Below, in pieces: positions 26,434 to 33,187 of a stretch of 38,499 nucleotides of DNA. Every line of letters begins with the position of its first letter. Within the stretch, counting starts at the first letter, position 1. The notes under the pieces are model-generated. The model made no database searches and was not told the origin of the DNA. It saw only the letters and a list, made by a program, of their open reading frames with translations. Both the position numbers and the translations under genes were made by a program. Origin of the DNA: Acidobacteriaceae bacterium (GTDB lineage Bacteria > Acidobacteriota > Terriglobia > Terriglobales > Acidobacteriaceae); NCBI GenBank assembly GCA_030041435.1, contig JASHNW010000128.1, positions 1 to 38,499 of the forward strand. The letters run 5' to 3'.

Positions 26434-27732
26434 ATGACCTGTTCCGTCCGGCCCGGCTGTCGCGCCCCTGGCATGCTTCTGGCCGCGCTGTGTCTCGCTG
26501 CGCCGGCCCTCGCTTCCCATTCTGCGGCCCCGCCCCAACCTGCCGTCTGCGACGTCACGCACTATGGCGCGGTTGCCGATGGCAAGACAAAAAACACCCA
26601 GGCCATCCAGGCCGCCATCGACGACTGCGAGCGCAGCGGCGGCGGCATCGTGCGGCTCGCCGGTGGCACCTTCCTCTCCGGGCCCATTGTCCTCCGCAGC
26701 CGCATCACCCTCGATATCGAGTCCGGAGCCACGCTCCTCGGCTCTCCCGATGAGGCGGACTATCCGGTGATCGCCGTCTTCCGCGCCCAGGGCCGCCAGT
26801 CCCTCATCAGCGCTGCGGCTGCCCACGATCTGGCCATCGCCGGCGACGGCGCCATCGACGGCAACGGCGCAGGCTGGTGGGCCGAAGCTCGCCGGCAAAA
26901 AGATCACGGCGTGGTGACCGACGTGGTCTTCCGTCCGCGCCTCATCGTCTTCGACCACTGCCGTCACGTCCTCATCGACCACGTCACCATCCGGAACTCG
27001 CCCTCGTGGCAGGTGGTCCCCTACTACTCTGACGACGTCATCATCCGCGACAGCCGCATCTACGCGCCGCCGCACTCCCCCAACACCGATGGCATCGATC
27101 CGTTCTCCTCCACCCGCGTCACCATCGAGCGCATGACGATCGACGTTGGCGACGACAACGTCGCCATCAAGTCGGGCCTGCCCGGCTCGCCTGGCCCCGA
27201 CGCGCCCAGCTCCGGCATCACCGTCACCGACTGCGTCTTCCTCCATGGACACGGCATGTCCATTGGCAGCGAAGTCGCCGGCGGCGTCGAGAACGTTCAT
27301 GTCTCTCGCGTTTCCTTCCGTGGCACCGACAACGGCGTGCGTGTCAAGTCCGCGCGCGGCCGCGGCGCCGGCATCGGCAACCTCTGGTTCAGCCATCTGA
27401 CCATGGAAAACGTTGCCACCCCGCTGCTCATCACCGAGTACTACCCGCACATTCCTCAGCACGACGGCGCCCAGCCCGTCACCCGCCTCACGCCTCGCTT
27501 CCACGATATTCACATCGCAAACCTCACCGCGAGCGGCGCGAAGCAGACCGGTATTATCGCGGGACTGCCGGAAAGCCCCATCCGGAACCTCTTCCTCTGC
27601 AACGTTCACCTGCAGGGCGAGCAGGGCCTCACCATCGCCAACGCCACCGTGATTGCGCATAACCTCACGGTGGCGCCGGCCACACCCCCGCCTGTGGTGC
27701 TGCTCGACCACGCGCAGCTGATCCGCAAATAG
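26434..27732 (+). CDS. Exported polygalacturonase (GH28)
   Basis: The product is 432 aa with a signal peptide (APGMLLAALCLAAPALA). The right-handed beta-helix begins with DVTHYGAVADGKTKNTQAIQAAIDDC. All four GH28 catalytic blocks are present: SPNTDGID, GDDNVAIKSG, GHGMSIGSE and RVKSARGRG. It hydrolyses alpha-1,4-galacturonic links in pectin or related oligosaccharides, probably in the periplasm. The stop codon TAG (27730-27732) takes its last two bases from the end of an inverted-repeat fragment at 27731, so the natural C terminus may have been trimmed by that insertion. No other pectin genes are adjacent. Confidence 0.93.
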   Translation: MTCSVRPGCRAPGMLLAALCLAAPALASHSAAPPQPAVCDVTHYGAVADGKTKNTQAIQAAIDDCERSGGGIVRLAGGTFLSGPIVLRSRITLDIESGATLLGSPDEADYPVIAVFRAQGRQSLISAAAAHDLAIAGDGAIDGNGAGWWAEARRQKDHGVVTDVVFRPRLIVFDHCRHVLIDHVTIRNSPSWQVVPYYSDDVIIRDSRIYAPPHSPNTDGIDPFSSTRVTIERMTIDVGDDNVAIKSGLPGSPGPDAPSSGITVTDCVFLHGHGMSIGSEVAGGVENVHVSRVSFRGTDNGVRVKSARGRGAGIGNLWFSHLTMENVATPLLITEYYPHIPQHDGAQPVTRLTPRFHDIHIANLTASGAKQTGIIAGLPESPIRNLFLCNVHLQGEQGLTIANATVIAHNLTVAPATPPPVVLLDHAQLIRK

Positions 27733-27780: not shown

Positions 27781-27820
27781 ATCGTAATGCGATGTACAAC
27801 ACATCGTATTACGATATAAT
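27781..27820 (+). promoter_or_regulatory. Promoter and double MarR-type operator for the PRC gene
   Basis: ATCGTAATGCGAT (27781-27793, one mismatch) and ATCGTATTACGAT (27803-27815, perfect 6-1-6 palindrome) lie 9 bp apart, so their starts are two helical turns apart. A consensus TATAAT -10 (27815-27820) begins on the last base of the second site. The same palindrome precedes marR, so MarR is the likely repressor of both. Confidence 0.75.
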
Positions 27821-27914
27821 CAGTCAGGGGAGTTTCCGCATGGGCCGCGCTCGGTCTGTCAGCTCGGCCGTGCCGCGCTCTCCGGCAATGCGTCAGGCAC
27901 CGGCGGAGGTAAGC

Positions 27915-28559
27915 ATGTTTCACAGCATCGAAACTTTATTGGAGATTCCACTGGCAACTGCCGACGGGGAAACCAGAGCAATTCGCAACTTCCTTTTCGA
28001 CGACCGTTCCTGGCTGGTGCGCTTTCTCGTCGTCGATGTCGGAAAATGGCTTGCCCCCCGTCAGGTCGTCATCCCTGCCTCCGCTGTCGACGTGCCCGAC
28101 TGGAAAGGACATATCATCCGCGCCCACTTAACTTCCGCCGAGCTCCTCGCCAGCCCCGATGCTGAGACAATAAGGCCCGTCTCGCGCCAGCAGCAGACCG
28201 CATGGGCCGGGCATTTCGGCTGGGGCCAGGGCGATCCCAATTGGTCCGGTCCTTCCTCTGCCGACTTCCCCCGCAGAGAATTCAACGTCGGCGGCGAGGG
28301 CAACGATCCTCACCTGCGCCGCACCGGCGATCTCATTTCTTATCAGGTATGGGCGAAGAACGGCTACCTGGGGCTGCTCGAAGGCTTCTTCCTCGAGGAT
28401 GCGTCCTGGCACATCGGCTATCTCCTCACCCGCACCGGCGACTGGGTTTGCGAGGAGAAAGTCGTTCCCAGCTCCAGCGTCGCCGCCATTTCATGGGGTC
28501 AGCGGCGCGTCATGCTCGACTGCCCCAGTGATTCGGCCCACCAGCAGGCTTCTTTCTGA
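27915..28559 (+). CDS. PRC-barrel-like protein
   Basis: The ATG at 27915 with GGAGGT six bases upstream gives 214 aa; an in-frame ATG at 27792 lies inside the operator and is rejected. Two PRC-barrel-like halves are visible: IPLATADGETRAIRNFLFDDRSWLVRFLVVDVG at about 13-45, and DLISYQVWAKNGYLGLLEGFFLEDASWHIGYLLTRTGDW at about 135-175. Each carries the LxGxxG..D/F...W..RYLVV-type core. No signal peptide or membrane segment is seen, so it is cytoplasmic. PRC barrels are small beta domains in photosynthetic reaction centres and RimM, and in stress proteins of unknown role. The shared operators tie this gene to the marR-ClC operon immediately downstream. Confidence 0.8.
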   Translation: MFHSIETLLEIPLATADGETRAIRNFLFDDRSWLVRFLVVDVGKWLAPRQVVIPASAVDVPDWKGHIIRAHLTSAELLASPDAETIRPVSRQQQTAWAGHFGWGQGDPNWSGPSSADFPRREFNVGGEGNDPHLRRTGDLISYQVWAKNGYLGLLEGFFLEDASWHIGYLLTRTGDWVCEEKVVPSSSVAAISWGQRRVMLDCPSDSAHQQASF

Positions 28560-28615
28560 CCACGCCGTTCCACAGCGCGCGGCGTTGACGCAGGTGCCTG
28601 CGCGCTGCCGGATAG

Positions 28616-28635
28616 ATCGTACTACGATGTATAAT
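28616..28635 (+). promoter_or_regulatory. marR promoter with ATCGTACTACGAT operator
   Basis: ATCGTA-C-TACGAT (28616-28628) is a perfect 6-1-6 palindrome, followed after one base by a consensus TATAAT (28630-28635). Seven bases after the -10 is the ATG at 28642, so transcription and translation start at nearly the same base. No good -35 is seen, which suits a regulated promoter. Confidence 0.75.
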
Positions 28636-28641
28636 GTTTCG

Positions 28642-29196
28642 ATGAAACCTCGAGTCGCAGTTCGCCGCCGCCGGCCGCCTGCGCAGGGGCGGGACCTCAA
28701 ACGGGTCATTGTCAGTCTGGCCGGGTTTCGCTACGCGCTGCGAAAATTCCTGCGCTTCAGCGAGAATGCCGCGCGATCCTGCGGCATCACCCCGCAGCAG
28801 CATCAGCTCATGCTGGGCGTTGCCGGCTTTACCGGCCGCGGCTGGGCCACCGTTTCTGAGCTGGCCGAATTCCTGCAGGGGAGGCTTCATTCCATTGTCG
28901 GTCTCGTGGAGCGGGCAGAGCAAAGCGGCTTAGTTCGCTGCACAAAAAGCAAAACCGATCGCCGCGTTGTCATTGTCTCCCTGAGCCGTCGCGGAGAGCA
29001 GATCCTCTCCCAGTTGTCCACTCTGCACCACGAACAGTCGGCCCGCCTCAGGGCCTTCCTGCTCGACACCCGCGAAGCCCGCAGGGTGGCGGCGAGGCAC
29101 GAAAGGCGAGATGCTGAGCGGAACCCTGCAAATTCCAGGCCGCCCGCAGGGCGGACATACCGCAGAAATGCGAAAGGAACAATTCGACCTGCGTGA
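28642..29196 (+). CDS. MarR-family transcriptional regulator
   Basis: The product is 184 aa from the ATG at 28642, at a leaderless position. The winged helix runs from about residue 45 to 115: ITPQQHQLMLGVAGF, ATVSELAEFLQGRLHSIVGLVERAEQSGLV as the recognition region, then RCTKSKTDRRVVIVSLSRRGEQIL as the wing with its D-R pair. The N-terminal 20 residues are very Arg-rich, and the C-terminal 35 are basic and low-complexity. The stop overlaps the GTG of the first ClC gene by three bases, so it is translationally coupled to transporter expression. It probably binds the ATCGTAnTACGAT sites at its own promoter and at the PRC promoter. The ligand is unknown; an anion, pH or aromatic acid are candidates. 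Confidence 0.88.
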   Translation: MKPRVAVRRRRPPAQGRDLKRVIVSLAGFRYALRKFLRFSENAARSCGITPQQHQLMLGVAGFTGRGWATVSELAEFLQGRLHSIVGLVERAEQSGLVRCTKSKTDRRVVIVSLSRRGEQILSQLSTLHHEQSARLRAFLLDTREARRVAARHERRDAERNPANSRPPAGRTYRRNAKGTIRPA

Positions 29197-31037
29197 AACC
29201 TACACCGCCTAAGCTAATTCGGCAGAGAGACCGTCTTCTTCATCATCCTTTGCTGCGCAAATATCTGCCCCTGGTCCACGAGGACCTCGCCGCGGTGTAC
29301 TCCCGCGACCTGCAGAAATGGCTCATTGTCGCGCCCATTATCGGGGTGGTCACCGGCCTCACCATTACTGCCATCTCGATCGTCATTCTGGGCAAGCTCT
29401 GGCCGGTTGTTCTGGCATATTACCTGCACCATCACTGGGCCATCGTCCCCGGCCTCGTGCTGGCCTTCGCCGTCACCGGCGCCATCATGCAGTTCTTCAC
29501 CCCCGACCCCGACGAGCACTCCACCGAAGAGATCATTCGTTCCTACCACGAGCACCAGGGCGACATCGAGATGCGCCCCTTCTTTCCCAAGCTGATCGCC
29601 GCCATCACCACGGTCGGTTTCGGCGGCAGCGCCGCCCTCGAGGGGCCCAGCATCTACGGCGGCGGCGCCATCGGCTCCTGGTTGTGGGCCAAACTGCGCG
29701 GATTTCGCCTCGACGACCGGGACCGCCGCATCATGCTCATTTGCGGCGCCGCTGCCGGCATGTCCGCGGTCTTCCGCGCCCCCCTCACCGGCATCGTCTT
29801 TGCCCTCGAGATGCCCTACCGCGACGACCTTGCCCACGAAGCCCTCGTCCCATCCCTCATTGCCTCCGTGGTGGCCTTCGTCACCCTCAGTTCGTTTATG
29901 GGCGCCAAGCCGCTCTTCGACTTCATCGGCGGCGGCTCGTTCGATCGCCACGACCTCTACTGGAGCGCCCTGTTGGGCCTGCTCATCGGCCTCATCGCCA
30001 TGGTCTTCGTGGTCACCTTTCGCCGGGCGCGCAGTTTCTTCGTCAAATGGTCGTTCCCTCACTGGGTCAAGATGACCGTCGGCGGTCTGGGCACAGGCCT
30101 CTGCGGCCTTCTCTTCCTGCAAATCTACCCCGGCCTGCTCGTGCCCCTCGGCCCCAATTACGAGGCTGTGGGCATGATCCTCAGCGGCCACCATGGCACT
30201 CCCGAGCTCCTTGCCTTCAGCGGTCTCAAGTTGTCGGCCACCGTTTTCACCCTCGGTGCCGGCGGCGTCAGCGCCATGTTTGTCCCCCTGTTCCTCACCG
30301 GCGGAGCTTTGGGCACGGCCTTCGCGCAATCCATCGTGCACAGCCCGAACCTCGGTCTTTATGCCGCTGTCGGCATGGCATCTTTTATTTCCGCCGGATA
30401 CAAAACCCCCCTGGCGGCGGCTGTTTTCGTCGCCGAAGCAACCGGCGCTCACGCCTTTATCATCCCCGCGCTCATCGGAGCCGCCGTAGCCTACGCCATT
30501 TCCGGCGATGCATCCGCTTCCGCAGATCAGCGCCTGCACGAGGGGGTCAAGCTGCAGGAACTGACAGAAGTTCCGGTCAGCGAGGTGATGCAGCAGCATC
30601 TCATTTCAGCCCAGGCTTCCCTCACTGTCCACGAATTCGTCGGTACGCTGTCTCCGCATTCGCACCACGAGGGCTTTCCCGTGTTTGACGGCAACGACCT
30701 GCTCGGCGCTGTGACTCTCTGGGCCGTTGTTCACACCGCTCCGGAGCGATGGAAGACCACACGCCTGCACAGCCTCATCGATGCGCGCATCGGGAGAATC
30801 TCACCCGATGCCGATGTTACCGAGGCTCTTCGCCTCCTGCTCGGCGAACACAAGCAGCCCATGTTGCTGGTCGTTTCAGAGCAGGGCAGCATTCAGGGCG
30901 TCGTCACCAAGACCGATATCCTCAACGCGCTAAGGACTCGACGCAGTCCAGCGCACGGCCTCAGTCACGGGAATCCATCCGGCGGCCCGCAGGCAAAGGA
31001 ACTCGTTGAGACGGCTCGCGCGGGTGAGCTGCGATGA
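29193..31037 (+). CDS. ClC-family chloride channel/transporter with CBS domains, copy 1
   Basis: The product is 614 aa from a GTG overlapping the marR stop. It has the CLC membrane domain (about 45-430) followed by a CBS pair (about 455-590). The gating-Glu motif is present as GGSAALEGPSIYGGG, and the helix block AAGMSAVFRAPLTGIVFALE is conserved. Two features are unusual. The GSGIPE chloride-filter motif is replaced by HSTEEII. By eye, the position of the internal proton Glu of ClC-ec1 (E203) reads Met (ALEMPY). The last motif is GAGGVSAMFVPLFLTGG. It moves anions across the inner membrane; channel or exchanger mode cannot be decided from sequence. The CBS pair suggests nucleotide control. 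Confidence 0.9.
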   Translation: MKPTPPKLIRQRDRLLHHPLLRKYLPLVHEDLAAVYSRDLQKWLIVAPIIGVVTGLTITAISIVILGKLWPVVLAYYLHHHWAIVPGLVLAFAVTGAIMQFFTPDPDEHSTEEIIRSYHEHQGDIEMRPFFPKLIAAITTVGFGGSAALEGPSIYGGGAIGSWLWAKLRGFRLDDRDRRIMLICGAAAGMSAVFRAPLTGIVFALEMPYRDDLAHEALVPSLIASVVAFVTLSSFMGAKPLFDFIGGGSFDRHDLYWSALLGLLIGLIAMVFVVTFRRARSFFVKWSFPHWVKMTVGGLGTGLCGLLFLQIYPGLLVPLGPNYEAVGMILSGHHGTPELLAFSGLKLSATVFTLGAGGVSAMFVPLFLTGGALGTAFAQSIVHSPNLGLYAAVGMASFISAGYKTPLAAAVFVAEATGAHAFIIPALIGAAVAYAISGDASASADQRLHEGVKLQELTEVPVSEVMQQHLISAQASLTVHEFVGTLSPHSHHEGFPVFDGNDLLGAVTLWAVVHTAPERWKTTRLHSLIDARIGRISPDADVTEALRLLLGEHKQPMLLVVSEQGSIQGVVTKTDILNALRTRRSPAHGLSHGNPSGGPQAKELVETARAGELR

Positions 31038-31162
31038 CCAGTTCGCGCCCCGTGCGCACCCGCGGCCCCTGCACGCCAGCGCCGTCGCGCTGCCGGGGAA
31101 CGCCTGCAGGTTTCACGGCCAGCTGTCTGCAGTGAGAGAAGCGAATGTTCAGGAGGTCTACG

Positions 31163-32974
31163 ATGGCCGAATTTCCGATTCCGGAGGCCGCTGCCACTCC
31201 CGAGTCGCAGTCGAACAAGAAAGGGCAGATCGGCGTCGCACTGGAGCCCGAGGTGGTGCGAATCTGCGGCTACGCCCTCCTCGTCGGGTTGGTTGCCGGG
31301 TTGGTGGCGCAGGGCCTGCTCGAGCTGATCTACGTGTTCACCAACATTTTCTTCTACGGCCGGTTCTCCTTTGCCATTACCAATCCCGCGCACAATCATC
31401 TCGGGCTCTGGGTGATTCTCATCCCGCCCCTGGGCGGATTGTTAGTCGGCATCATGATCTACTTCTGGGAGCCCACGCTCAAAGGTCACGGGATTCCCGA
31501 GGCGATGGAGTCCGTGCTCTTCGGCCACAGCCGCATGCGCATTCGCGTGGCCATCCTCAAGCCCCTCGCTACCGCATTTGCCATCGGCACCGGCGGCCCC
31601 TTCGGCGCGGAAGGCCCGATCATCCAGACCGGAGCCGCGCTCGGATCGCTGTTTGGACAAGCCATCGGCCTCACCCCGTATTATCGCCGCGTCCTGCTTG
31701 CTTCCGGTGCTGCGGCCGGCATGGCGGCCACCTTCACTGCGCCTCTGGCTGGCATTCTGGTCGCCGTGGAACTGCTGCTCTTCGAGCTGCGCGCCCGCTC
31801 CTTCATTCCTGTCGCCCTTGCCTCCGCCGTCGCAACCGGGGTTCGCATCCATTTCGTCGGCTGGGCGCCGCTGTTTCCCACCCCCGCTTTCAAGCTCACC
31901 GGCATGCGCGAGCTCTGGCTGTTTGCCGTGCTCGGTCTCCTCATGGGGCTGGTCGGCATCGCCATGATCCGCGCTCTTTCCTGGCTCGAAGACTTCTTCG
32001 ACAATCTCCCCGTCAAGCGTTCCCTCATCTGGTCCCCGGTAATCGGTGCCTTCATCCTTGGTGGCATTGGCTACTTCTACCCCCAGGTTCTGGGGACCAG
32101 CTACGACACCATCCGCGATATGCTGAACGACCGGCTCACCACCGGTCACCTCGTGGGGATCTCCTTCGCCAAGTTCTGGGCCCTGGTCATCTCGCTCGGT
32201 TCGGGCACCACCGGCGGTGTCTTTGCGCCTTCCCTGGTCGTCGGCGGTGGTCTGGGCGCCACCTTCGCTGTCGGCGCGCAGCACCTCTTTCCCTCCGTGG
32301 TCAGCAATCCCGCCTTCTATGCCCTGGCCGCCATGGCTGCTGTCTTCGGCGGCATTGCCCGGGCTCCCTTCACCAGCATCGTCTTCCTCTTTGAGCTGAG
32401 CCACAATCCCAATTCGCTGCTCCCGCTCATTGTCTGCGTCATGATCTCCGACGGCTTCGTGCGCCTCTTCAGCCGCGATTCCATCATGACCGTCAAGCTG
32501 GTCAAGCGCGGACTGATCGTTCTCCAGGATTACTCCGTGCCGGTGCTGATGCGCGCCCGCATCGACCAGGTCATGCGCAAAAATTTCAGCGTATTCCAGG
32601 CCCAGGACGAACTGCGCAAAGTTCTTGAGACCTTTGTCCCGGGAGATGAGGCACTAATCCCCGTGGTGGACGCATCCGGCGCTCTCACCGGAATTGTCGA
32701 ACCCCACGATCTGCTCCGGACCGAACCTCCCGATCACCACTTCAGGATGCGCGAACTGGCGCGGCGGGATTATGTCGTCGCCTATCCAGGCGAATCCGTC
32801 GATCAGGTGCACCGCGACATGATGCTGAAAAACACCGAGAATGTCGTGATTGTCCAGTCCACAGGCCTGCGCAAGCCCATCGGGCTCGCCCGCGCCAACG
32901 ACATTCTGCAATTGCGGCGCTGGCTCATGGAGGAGGAGACGCGAGAAATGCGGTCGAACGGCTCCCAAAGCTGA
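31163..32974 (+). CDS. ClC-family chloride channel/transporter with CBS domains, copy 2
   Basis: ATG 31163 follows a perfect AGGAGG six bases upstream, giving 603 aa; an ATG at 31145 is too early for that ribosome site. The canonical motifs are complete: GHGIPEAME (chloride filter), GGPFGAEGPIIQTGAALG with the gating Glu, FTAPLAGILVAVELLL, and SGTTGGVFAPSLVVGGGLG. As in copy 1, the position matching ClC-ec1 E203 is not acidic (VAVELL). A CBS pair fills about 465-595 (MRKNFSVFQAQDELRKVLE; RRDYVVAYPGESVDQVHRDM). It is 126 bp behind copy 1 in the same orientation and probably the same transcript. The two copies are strongly diverged, so they are not a recent duplication. Confidence 0.92.
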   Translation: MAEFPIPEAAATPESQSNKKGQIGVALEPEVVRICGYALLVGLVAGLVAQGLLELIYVFTNIFFYGRFSFAITNPAHNHLGLWVILIPPLGGLLVGIMIYFWEPTLKGHGIPEAMESVLFGHSRMRIRVAILKPLATAFAIGTGGPFGAEGPIIQTGAALGSLFGQAIGLTPYYRRVLLASGAAAGMAATFTAPLAGILVAVELLLFELRARSFIPVALASAVATGVRIHFVGWAPLFPTPAFKLTGMRELWLFAVLGLLMGLVGIAMIRALSWLEDFFDNLPVKRSLIWSPVIGAFILGGIGYFYPQVLGTSYDTIRDMLNDRLTTGHLVGISFAKFWALVISLGSGTTGGVFAPSLVVGGGLGATFAVGAQHLFPSVVSNPAFYALAAMAAVFGGIARAPFTSIVFLFELSHNPNSLLPLIVCVMISDGFVRLFSRDSIMTVKLVKRGLIVLQDYSVPVLMRARIDQVMRKNFSVFQAQDELRKVLETFVPGDEALIPVVDASGALTGIVEPHDLLRTEPPDHHFRMRELARRDYVVAYPGESVDQVHRDMMLKNTENVVIVQSTGLRKPIGLARANDILQLRRWLMEEETREMRSNGSQS

Positions 32975-33043
32975 TCGAGCCTCTTCCCGGCGTCGTGCTG
33001 CACACGACTCGCGCCGGGGACCTTCCCCTGTACCTCAATCGCC

Positions 33044-33187
33044 CTACGAGTCCTTGCCGGGCTTCAGCACATCTTCTTCTTCCGAGTCCGCCGTCGCCGT
33101 GCGCCCGTGCGTTGCCCACAGGATGCAGACCAGGAAGACCGCGACGAAAAGCAGCAACAATCCCCACGTATTCGGCGTTCCCACCAT
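33044..33187 (-). CDS. Micro-membrane protein B (47 aa), LWATHG family
   Basis: The ATG at 33187 is preceded by a strong GAGGAGGGAC ribosome site. The product has one hydrophobic helix (about 8-24: WGLLLLFVAVFLVCI), directly followed by LWATHG and an acidic/polar tail (TADSEEEDV). The same helix-LWATHG-polar-tail design occurs in the 42-aa protein encoded just upstream on the same strand, so the two are paralogues. It is probably a single-pass inner-membrane peptide that helps a larger complex, as KdpF or CcoQ-like subunits do, but no family is recognised. It is convergent with clc copy 2. Confidence 0.7.
   Translation of the reverse strand: MVGTPNTWGLLLLFVAVFLVCILWATHGRTATADSEEEDVLKPGKDS

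Follow-up and report, generated by a model that had tools for sequence, protein, structure and literature searches.

The 38,499-nt contig JASHNW010000128.1 of an Acidobacteriaceae bacterium (hereafter the window, meaning the whole stretch analysed), one of 134 contigs in a 5.77-Mb genome, carries a gene for a MarR-type regulator (marR), followed by two genes for ClC proteins (clc1 and clc2) and preceded by a gene for a PRC-barrel-like protein (Table 1). Comparison with relatives indicates that a putative small repressor gene stands directly ahead of one or two atypical ClC genes in many soil Acidobacteriota, and that this repressor very probably switches the ClC genes, together with the PRC gene in this lineage, through a conserved short palindrome. 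We put the probability of an autoregulated MarR-ClC operon, with MarR binding palindromes at its own promoter and at the PRC promoter, at about 0.72; judged from sequence, binding and repression by MarR are both likely.

The palindrome ATCGTAnTACGAT occurs in exact form twice in the whole 5.77-Mb genome, both copies lying at the PRC/marR locus, when about 0.07 exact copies per genome are expected from base composition, and a reversed control pattern gave no match genome-wide with up to one mismatch allowed. The three palindromes listed in the initial annotation were borne out (O1, O2, and O3 in Table 1); with up to two mismatches, they are the three matches that the window holds, and shuffled sequences held a mean of 0.44 and reached three in 1 of 100 cases. 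The two perfect copies had also been described as abutting a TATAAT box; O2 shares one base with its box, and O3 ends 1 bp ahead of its own. Since the ATG follows so closely on the -10 of marR, transcription of this gene would start on or next to that codon, and the mRNA is probably leaderless. The genes marR and clc1 overlap by 4 bp (29193-29196), and clc2 starts 125 bp past the end of clc1 with an AGGAGG of its own; no palindrome with up to two mismatches lies ahead of clc2 in the window.

The nearest named records found in a MarR similarity search belong to Acidobacteriaceae and other Acidobacteriota. The least biased sample comprises the best 80 of 521 loci by MarR similarity (L210-L289), found with an alignment whose members came mostly from ClC-linked loci. 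Among these 80, a ClC gene lies directly downstream in 69 (same strand, at most 900 bp from marR), and 3 of the remaining 11 reach a contig end; a palindrome of the form ATC-N7-GAT (at least 4 of 6 pairs, within 230 nt upstream) precedes marR in 62, both features occur together in 54, and neither is present in 3. Culturable relatives that carry the MarR-ClC unit include Paracidobacterium acidisoli (L211) and Acidipila rosea (L229). The same loose site was met in 130 of 2520 random 230-nt windows taken from 63 of these loci. In a non-redundant pooled set, which leaves out matches below 50 bits, cores with more than 40 gaps, and identical cores, 104 of 140 marR genes were ClC-linked and 106 of 140 site-bearing; scored against mononucleotide shuffles (mean 3.26, largest 9), a site was present at 107 of 141. 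For the linkage and operator counts of the best 80 and the 140-row set, strand was assigned from the match; for the figures on shuffles, random windows, site spacing, -10 elements, and residue 84, it was assigned from the protein letters, with at least one row (L231) mis-stranded. A further set (L062-L189), picked partly for the presence of MarR, ClC, or the palindrome, is a biased sample.

Twenty control ClC genes of another clade yielded no copy of the exact motif with up to two mismatches (0/20). More broadly, MarR homologues were detected in 77 of 100 genomes, own genome included (E 1e-5), and 24 of the 100 contain the exact palindrome. In a scan of the phylum that scored MarR alone, the MarR profile matched 40 of 199 genomes (E 1e-12), 18 of them in the same family, and only 4 of the 22 outside it fell below E 1e-40; a MarR-ClC pair was also found in a Bacillota metagenome-assembled genome (L289). 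The initial annotation had named absence of the palindrome upstream of relatives' orthologues as one outcome that would count against it; palindrome, MarR, and ClC instead recur together. Its MarR-controlled unit is supported insofar as the ClC genes are operator-linked and the predicted site is kept upstream of orthologues in many relatives; the attached pH or anion response is a guess.

Over 107 homologues, the operator has the consensus aaaaTAtATCGta.TaCGATATAat, and the -10 begins on its last base in 48 of them and after a 1-bp gap, as at marR in the window, in 10; no -10 was scored in 39. The commonest distances between successive sites are 22-23 bp (12 cases), 15-16 bp (10 cases), and 11 bp (4 cases), and the pair at the window PRC promoter belongs to the 22-bp class, a tandem spacing that recurs ahead of marR in relatives. 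The operator also varies with residue 84 of MarR, which lies in a modelled helix (82-94) taken as the recognition helix: Ser84 accompanies ATCG..CGAT in 76 of 84 rows, and 22 of the 23 rows with Ala84 show A or T in one or both half-sites; five loci whose MarR has Ala84 (L236, L246, L251, L267, and L273) carry a perfect ATCACA.TGTGAT in place of the main palindrome. The Fisher value for this covariation, uncorrected for kinship, is 3e-15; residue 68 scored above residue 84, and further columns also correlate. On a tree built leaving residue 84 out, this residue changed only twice independently, so that a kinship-corrected test cannot reach significance, and in random pairings the operator shifted in the same direction as residue 84 in 1.7 of 2 changes. 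The covariation fits direct operator recognition without proving it.

Besides this small number of independent changes, several observations weigh against a MarR-controlled ClC operon. No recognisable palindrome is present at 18 of the best 80 MarR loci, and under the loose criterion a site appears at 3 of the 20 control ClC genes. Of the 31 exact sites outside the own genome, 11 lie next to a MarR or ClC gene belonging to this family and 20 do not, and several exact palindromes lie near or within other genes; other regulators may therefore use the same palindrome, or some copies may be due to chance. In the genus set (12 genomes, G000-G011, several of them incomplete, G000 being the own genome), one genome (G003) has MarR and site with no adjacent ClC, and in family f2, 7 of 8 scanned loci have a MarR homologue with neither a site (up to two mismatches) nor an adjacent ClC, the exception being G064, with both. 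The PRC gene is absent from most relatives. Within the genus, orthologous MarR is found in 9 of the 12 genomes, and in the stretches seen of G005, G010, and G011 it is joined to ClC2 without ClC1.

A paralogous MarR clade (approximately 33-38% identity) includes a member in the own genome (G000:C112:2807, L101) and others at L126-L131, L188, and L189, with operators of the form ATCGTGnTACGAT and variants; the own-genome paralogue is convergent with an MFS-like transporter gene, as read from the sequence. Could such a regulator be the main reader of the palindrome, the linked MarR being one of several? The operator of the own-genome paralogue (ATCGTGCTACGAT) is one base off the main palindrome. 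Furthermore, an exact palindrome lies about 90 bp before the ClC2 orthologue in G002 (L125) and G008 (L124), and a tandem operator pair, with one mismatch each, before that of G006 (L167), genomes in which only the paralogue clade was found; exact palindromes also occur near unrelated genes in other genera. Against this stand the co-occurrence of the palindrome with the linked MarR, the covariation with residue 84, which is weak, and the spacing of the paralogue sites, 15 bp in 7 of 9 loci against 22 bp, and we regard this alternative as unlikely.

Other occurrences of the palindrome were recorded. A wider regulon in the own genome was considered and rejected: beyond the locus and the paralogue promoter (C112), four one-mismatch sites remain, none supporting such a claim, of which those at C80, C124, and C131 are within long predicted open reading frames and that at C70:24837 lies about 28-32 codons inside a predicted 223-aa open reading frame with an uncertain start. 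In two genera (L114 6325 in G026; L117 5527 in G033), a gene that reads as TolB-like from its sequence has the exact palindrome at its start, which suggests another or a wider regulon at these genes. Genome G026 holds six exact palindromes (L113 5204 and 9161, L112 6521, L114 6325, L115 5452, and L095 8962), one at its MarR and the others, as far as the sequence can be read, near genes resembling NADH dehydrogenase, nitric-oxide reductase, and a response regulator.

In the mechanism that we propose, a MarR dimer would bind the 13-bp palindrome in the spacer between -35 and -10, abutting or touching the -10, and would block RNA polymerase at the marR promoter and, in this lineage, also at the PRC promoter through the pair of sites 22 bp, or two helical turns, apart. 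Binding of an inducer would free MarR from the DNA, and marR, clc1, and clc2 would be expressed, as would, separately, the PRC gene; ClC1 and ClC2 would then act as an inducible anion pathway, offsetting charge or expelling an anion under stress, with the PRC-barrel protein probably accessory. Since MarR proteins commonly bind organic-acid-type ligands and ClCs serve acid resistance elsewhere, the most likely inducer would be an organic or phenolic acid able to cross the membrane, or some other signal of acid stress. Sites, gene order, conservation, protein families, and active-site residues are observed here; binding, repression, the inducer, the ion carried, and the role in the cell are inferred. 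Some MarR proteins, such as SlyA and RovA, act as activators or anti-silencers, and the regulator might do the same here. We consider this very improbable, because an operator at or in the -10 occupies the classical position of a repressor, as it does at both window promoters and in the homologues described above.

Both window ClCs contain a Voltage_CLC domain (242 and 310 bits), which places them in the CLC superfamily, and their closest solved relatives are ClC exchangers; the GxEGP gating glutamate is present in all covered rows. Residue counts (CLC-ec1 numbering) were grouped by MarR linkage and not de-duplicated, a genome with both a G and a named locus counting twice. Of 72 ClC1 rows directly behind MarR, the 71 covered ones all keep the gating Glu and the Ser of position S107, and the position of the internal glutamate E203 is Met in 70 and Val in 1. 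In ClC2 (50 rows directly behind MarR, and 19 that follow one at a greater distance), the gating Glu is kept in 64/64 covered rows and E203 is Leu in 63/63; S107 is replaced by His (61) or Asp (3), and Y445 by Met (47), Leu (8), Asn (3), or Val (1), never being Tyr. Among the 20 control ClCs from these genomes, E203 is Glu in all 20, S107 is Ser in 19, and Y445 is Tyr in 9 of the 16 rows that cover it. Because Leu is also found in 22 of the 23 ClC2-type rows that lack a neighbouring MarR, the atypical site tracks the clade rather than MarR linkage itself.

With CLC-ec1/ClcA, the window proteins have in common the Voltage_CLC fold, the gating glutamate, and E202; they differ in the internal glutamate, in Ser and Tyr of ClC2, in the absence of GSGIP from ClC1, which keeps its Ser and whose Tyr position is unaligned, and in their C-terminal CBS domains. 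In CLC-ec1, the intracellular constriction is made up of S107 and Y445, and without E203 H+ pumping is degraded and still present (PMC7253180); a few antiporters or exchangers lack E203 (PMC3519907). The ion and the coupling of the MarR-linked ClCs can therefore not be assumed, and they are probably not standard chloride/proton exchangers. A simple acid-stress operon with ordinary exchangers would agree with that persistence of pumping without a titratable glutamate, with the part that ClC exchangers play in acid resistance of Escherichia coli (PMC7231039), and with acid-soil hosts, to judge by words such as bog and acidisoli in the titles of records; set against the replaced internal glutamate in every covered MarR-linked row and the loss of both Ser and Tyr ligands in ClC2, we find it rather unlikely. 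A more speculative possibility, which we put at less than even, builds on the missing internal proton glutamate and, in ClC2, on the missing Ser and Tyr ligands: the MarR-linked ClCs may be distinct CLC branches for a non-chloride anion or for passive conduction, with MarR sensing the same stress or anion.

CLC-F fluoride exchangers sit under fluoride riboswitches. They resemble the present case in that an ion or a stress signal presumably turns on a ClC; here, in contrast, control would be exerted by a protein repressor at the DNA, and CLC-F (6d0j) is a weaker match to ClC1 (E 4e-14).

As to the PRC gene, its start is probably the ATG at 27915, since GGAGG lies just ahead and homology begins there, and the start at 27840 given initially is less likely. 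The Pfam PRC score of the protein (19.9 bits) just misses the cut-off of 21.2; the domain passes in 4 of 5 scanned homologues, and the close homologue L072 gave no match. An AlphaFold2 model (mean predicted local distance difference test score, pLDDT, 78; residues 105-130 below 50) has two barrels, and Foldseek points to a PRC-barrel fold by comparison with CdpB1/CdpB2 (8qzo, E 5e-8) and, more weakly, 3htr (E 1.7e-3). These proteins have tandem PRC barrels alike, CdpB being an archaeal cell-division protein, but they differ from the window protein in barrel arrangement, at 12-14% identity and with root-mean-square deviations of 4.6-12.6 to the 8qzo chains.

Seven of 100 genomes contain a PRC homologue; within the genus only 3 of 12 do (own genome, G004, and G009), the gene lying beside marR each time. 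All three genus PRC genes have an ATCG-N5-CGAT site abutting a -10, a pattern expected about 0.002 times per 150 nt: G009 has a tandem pair abutting TATAAT and G004 has ATCGTGAGGCGAT abutting TACAAT. From these sites in 3/3 and the presence in 3/12, we conclude that the PRC gene is likely co-regulated with the MarR-ClC unit and appears to be a local addition, outside the operon core. That its sites arose by chance or duplication, the PRC protein being unrelated to the ClCs, might be argued from this restricted presence and from the G004 site, which is palindromic in the four outer pairs only; the position beside marR with a site at the -10 in every case, kept although the proteins of G004 and G009 share only 49-51% identity with that of the window, makes this explanation quite unlikely. 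The initial annotation had proposed to look for co-occurrence of PRC, marR, clc, and palindrome in Acidobacteriota and had inferred PRC to be a co-regulated partner; marR, clc, and palindrome are indeed widespread together, and the PRC part is partly supported, within the genus in these three genomes only. In G009 (L062 8895-10148), the PRC gene and clc1 are separated by two different marR genes in tandem, and a separate palindrome or pair accompanies each of them.

The window MarR passes the Pfam MarR_2 model (28.7 bits, cut-off 27) and falls below a second one, MarR (PF01047; 20.6 against 24.6); its fold model has a pLDDT of 86, and a palindrome is predicted at its own promoter, as expected of the family. 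Invariant residues in alignment A1 include R30, R34, F36, and H129, with H54 nearly invariant. Redox sensing through a cysteine was rejected, since none is invariant in A1, a difference from the MarR structures 2rdp, 4hbl, and 5hlg (the latter two being AbfR), which belong to the same family (profile E 2.8e-12 to 1.6e-11). The autoregulated MarR-family transporter operons marRAB and emrRAB are alike in having a small winged-helix regulator, palindromes at its own promoter, and a transporter gene directly downstream; their cargo is a drug pump, and here it is one or two ClC proteins, with tandem 22-bp operators and an added PRC promoter.

Table 1. Genes and predicted regulatory sites of the PRC-marR-clc cluster in the window.
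Feature	Coordinates	Strand	Description	Evidence
O1	27781..27793	.	Predicted operator, PRC promoter; ATCGTAATGCGAT, 1 mismatch, 22 bp upstream of O2	Motif scan
O2	27803..27815	.	Predicted operator, PRC promoter; ATCGTATTACGAT, exact	Motif scan of window and genome
PRC -10	27815..27820	+	TATAAT, one base shared with O2; -35-like TGTACA at 27793	Sequence
PRC gene	27915..28559	+	PRC-barrel-like, tandem barrels, 214 aa	Pfam scan, ribosome-site and homology start, fold model
O3	28616..28628	.	Predicted operator, marR promoter; ATCGTACTACGAT, exact	Motif scan of window and genome
marR -10	28630..28635	+	TATAAT after 1-bp gap from O3; ATG 6 nt beyond	Sequence
marR	28642..29196	+	Winged-helix regulator, 184 aa	Pfam scan, alignment, fold model
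clc1	29193..31037	+	GTG start, 614 aa, ClC and CBS domains; Met at internal proton glutamate position	Pfam scan, alignment
clc2	31163..32974	+	603 aa, ClC and CBS domains; His at S107, Leu at E203, Met at Y445 (CLC-ec1 numbering)	Pfam scan, alignment

Immediately upstream of the cluster, on the same strand, lies a glycoside hydrolase family 28 (polygalacturonase-like) gene (26434-27732).

The component families are already known; an open-access literature search gave no earlier description of their combination, of the operator family, or of the atypical ClC subset. This search recognised no MarR-controlled ClC, no combination of PRC, MarR, and ClC, and no published case of a DNA-binding protein that regulates bacterial ClC genes in this way, which is weak evidence, as subscription journals were mostly uncovered.

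In brief, the cluster offers a specific and testable set of regulator, operator, and targets that recurs in Acidobacteriota, a phylum abundant in acid soils. The sharp split between MarR-following ClCs with atypical sites and ClCs of another clade that keep the canonical internal glutamate in the same genomes suggests that one protein superfamily does two jobs in a single genome, and the inducer of MarR would provide a route to the natural substrate of these ClCs. If the tentative anion-relief reading is true, a repressor-controlled system of this kind would be widespread in acid-soil Acidobacteriota.

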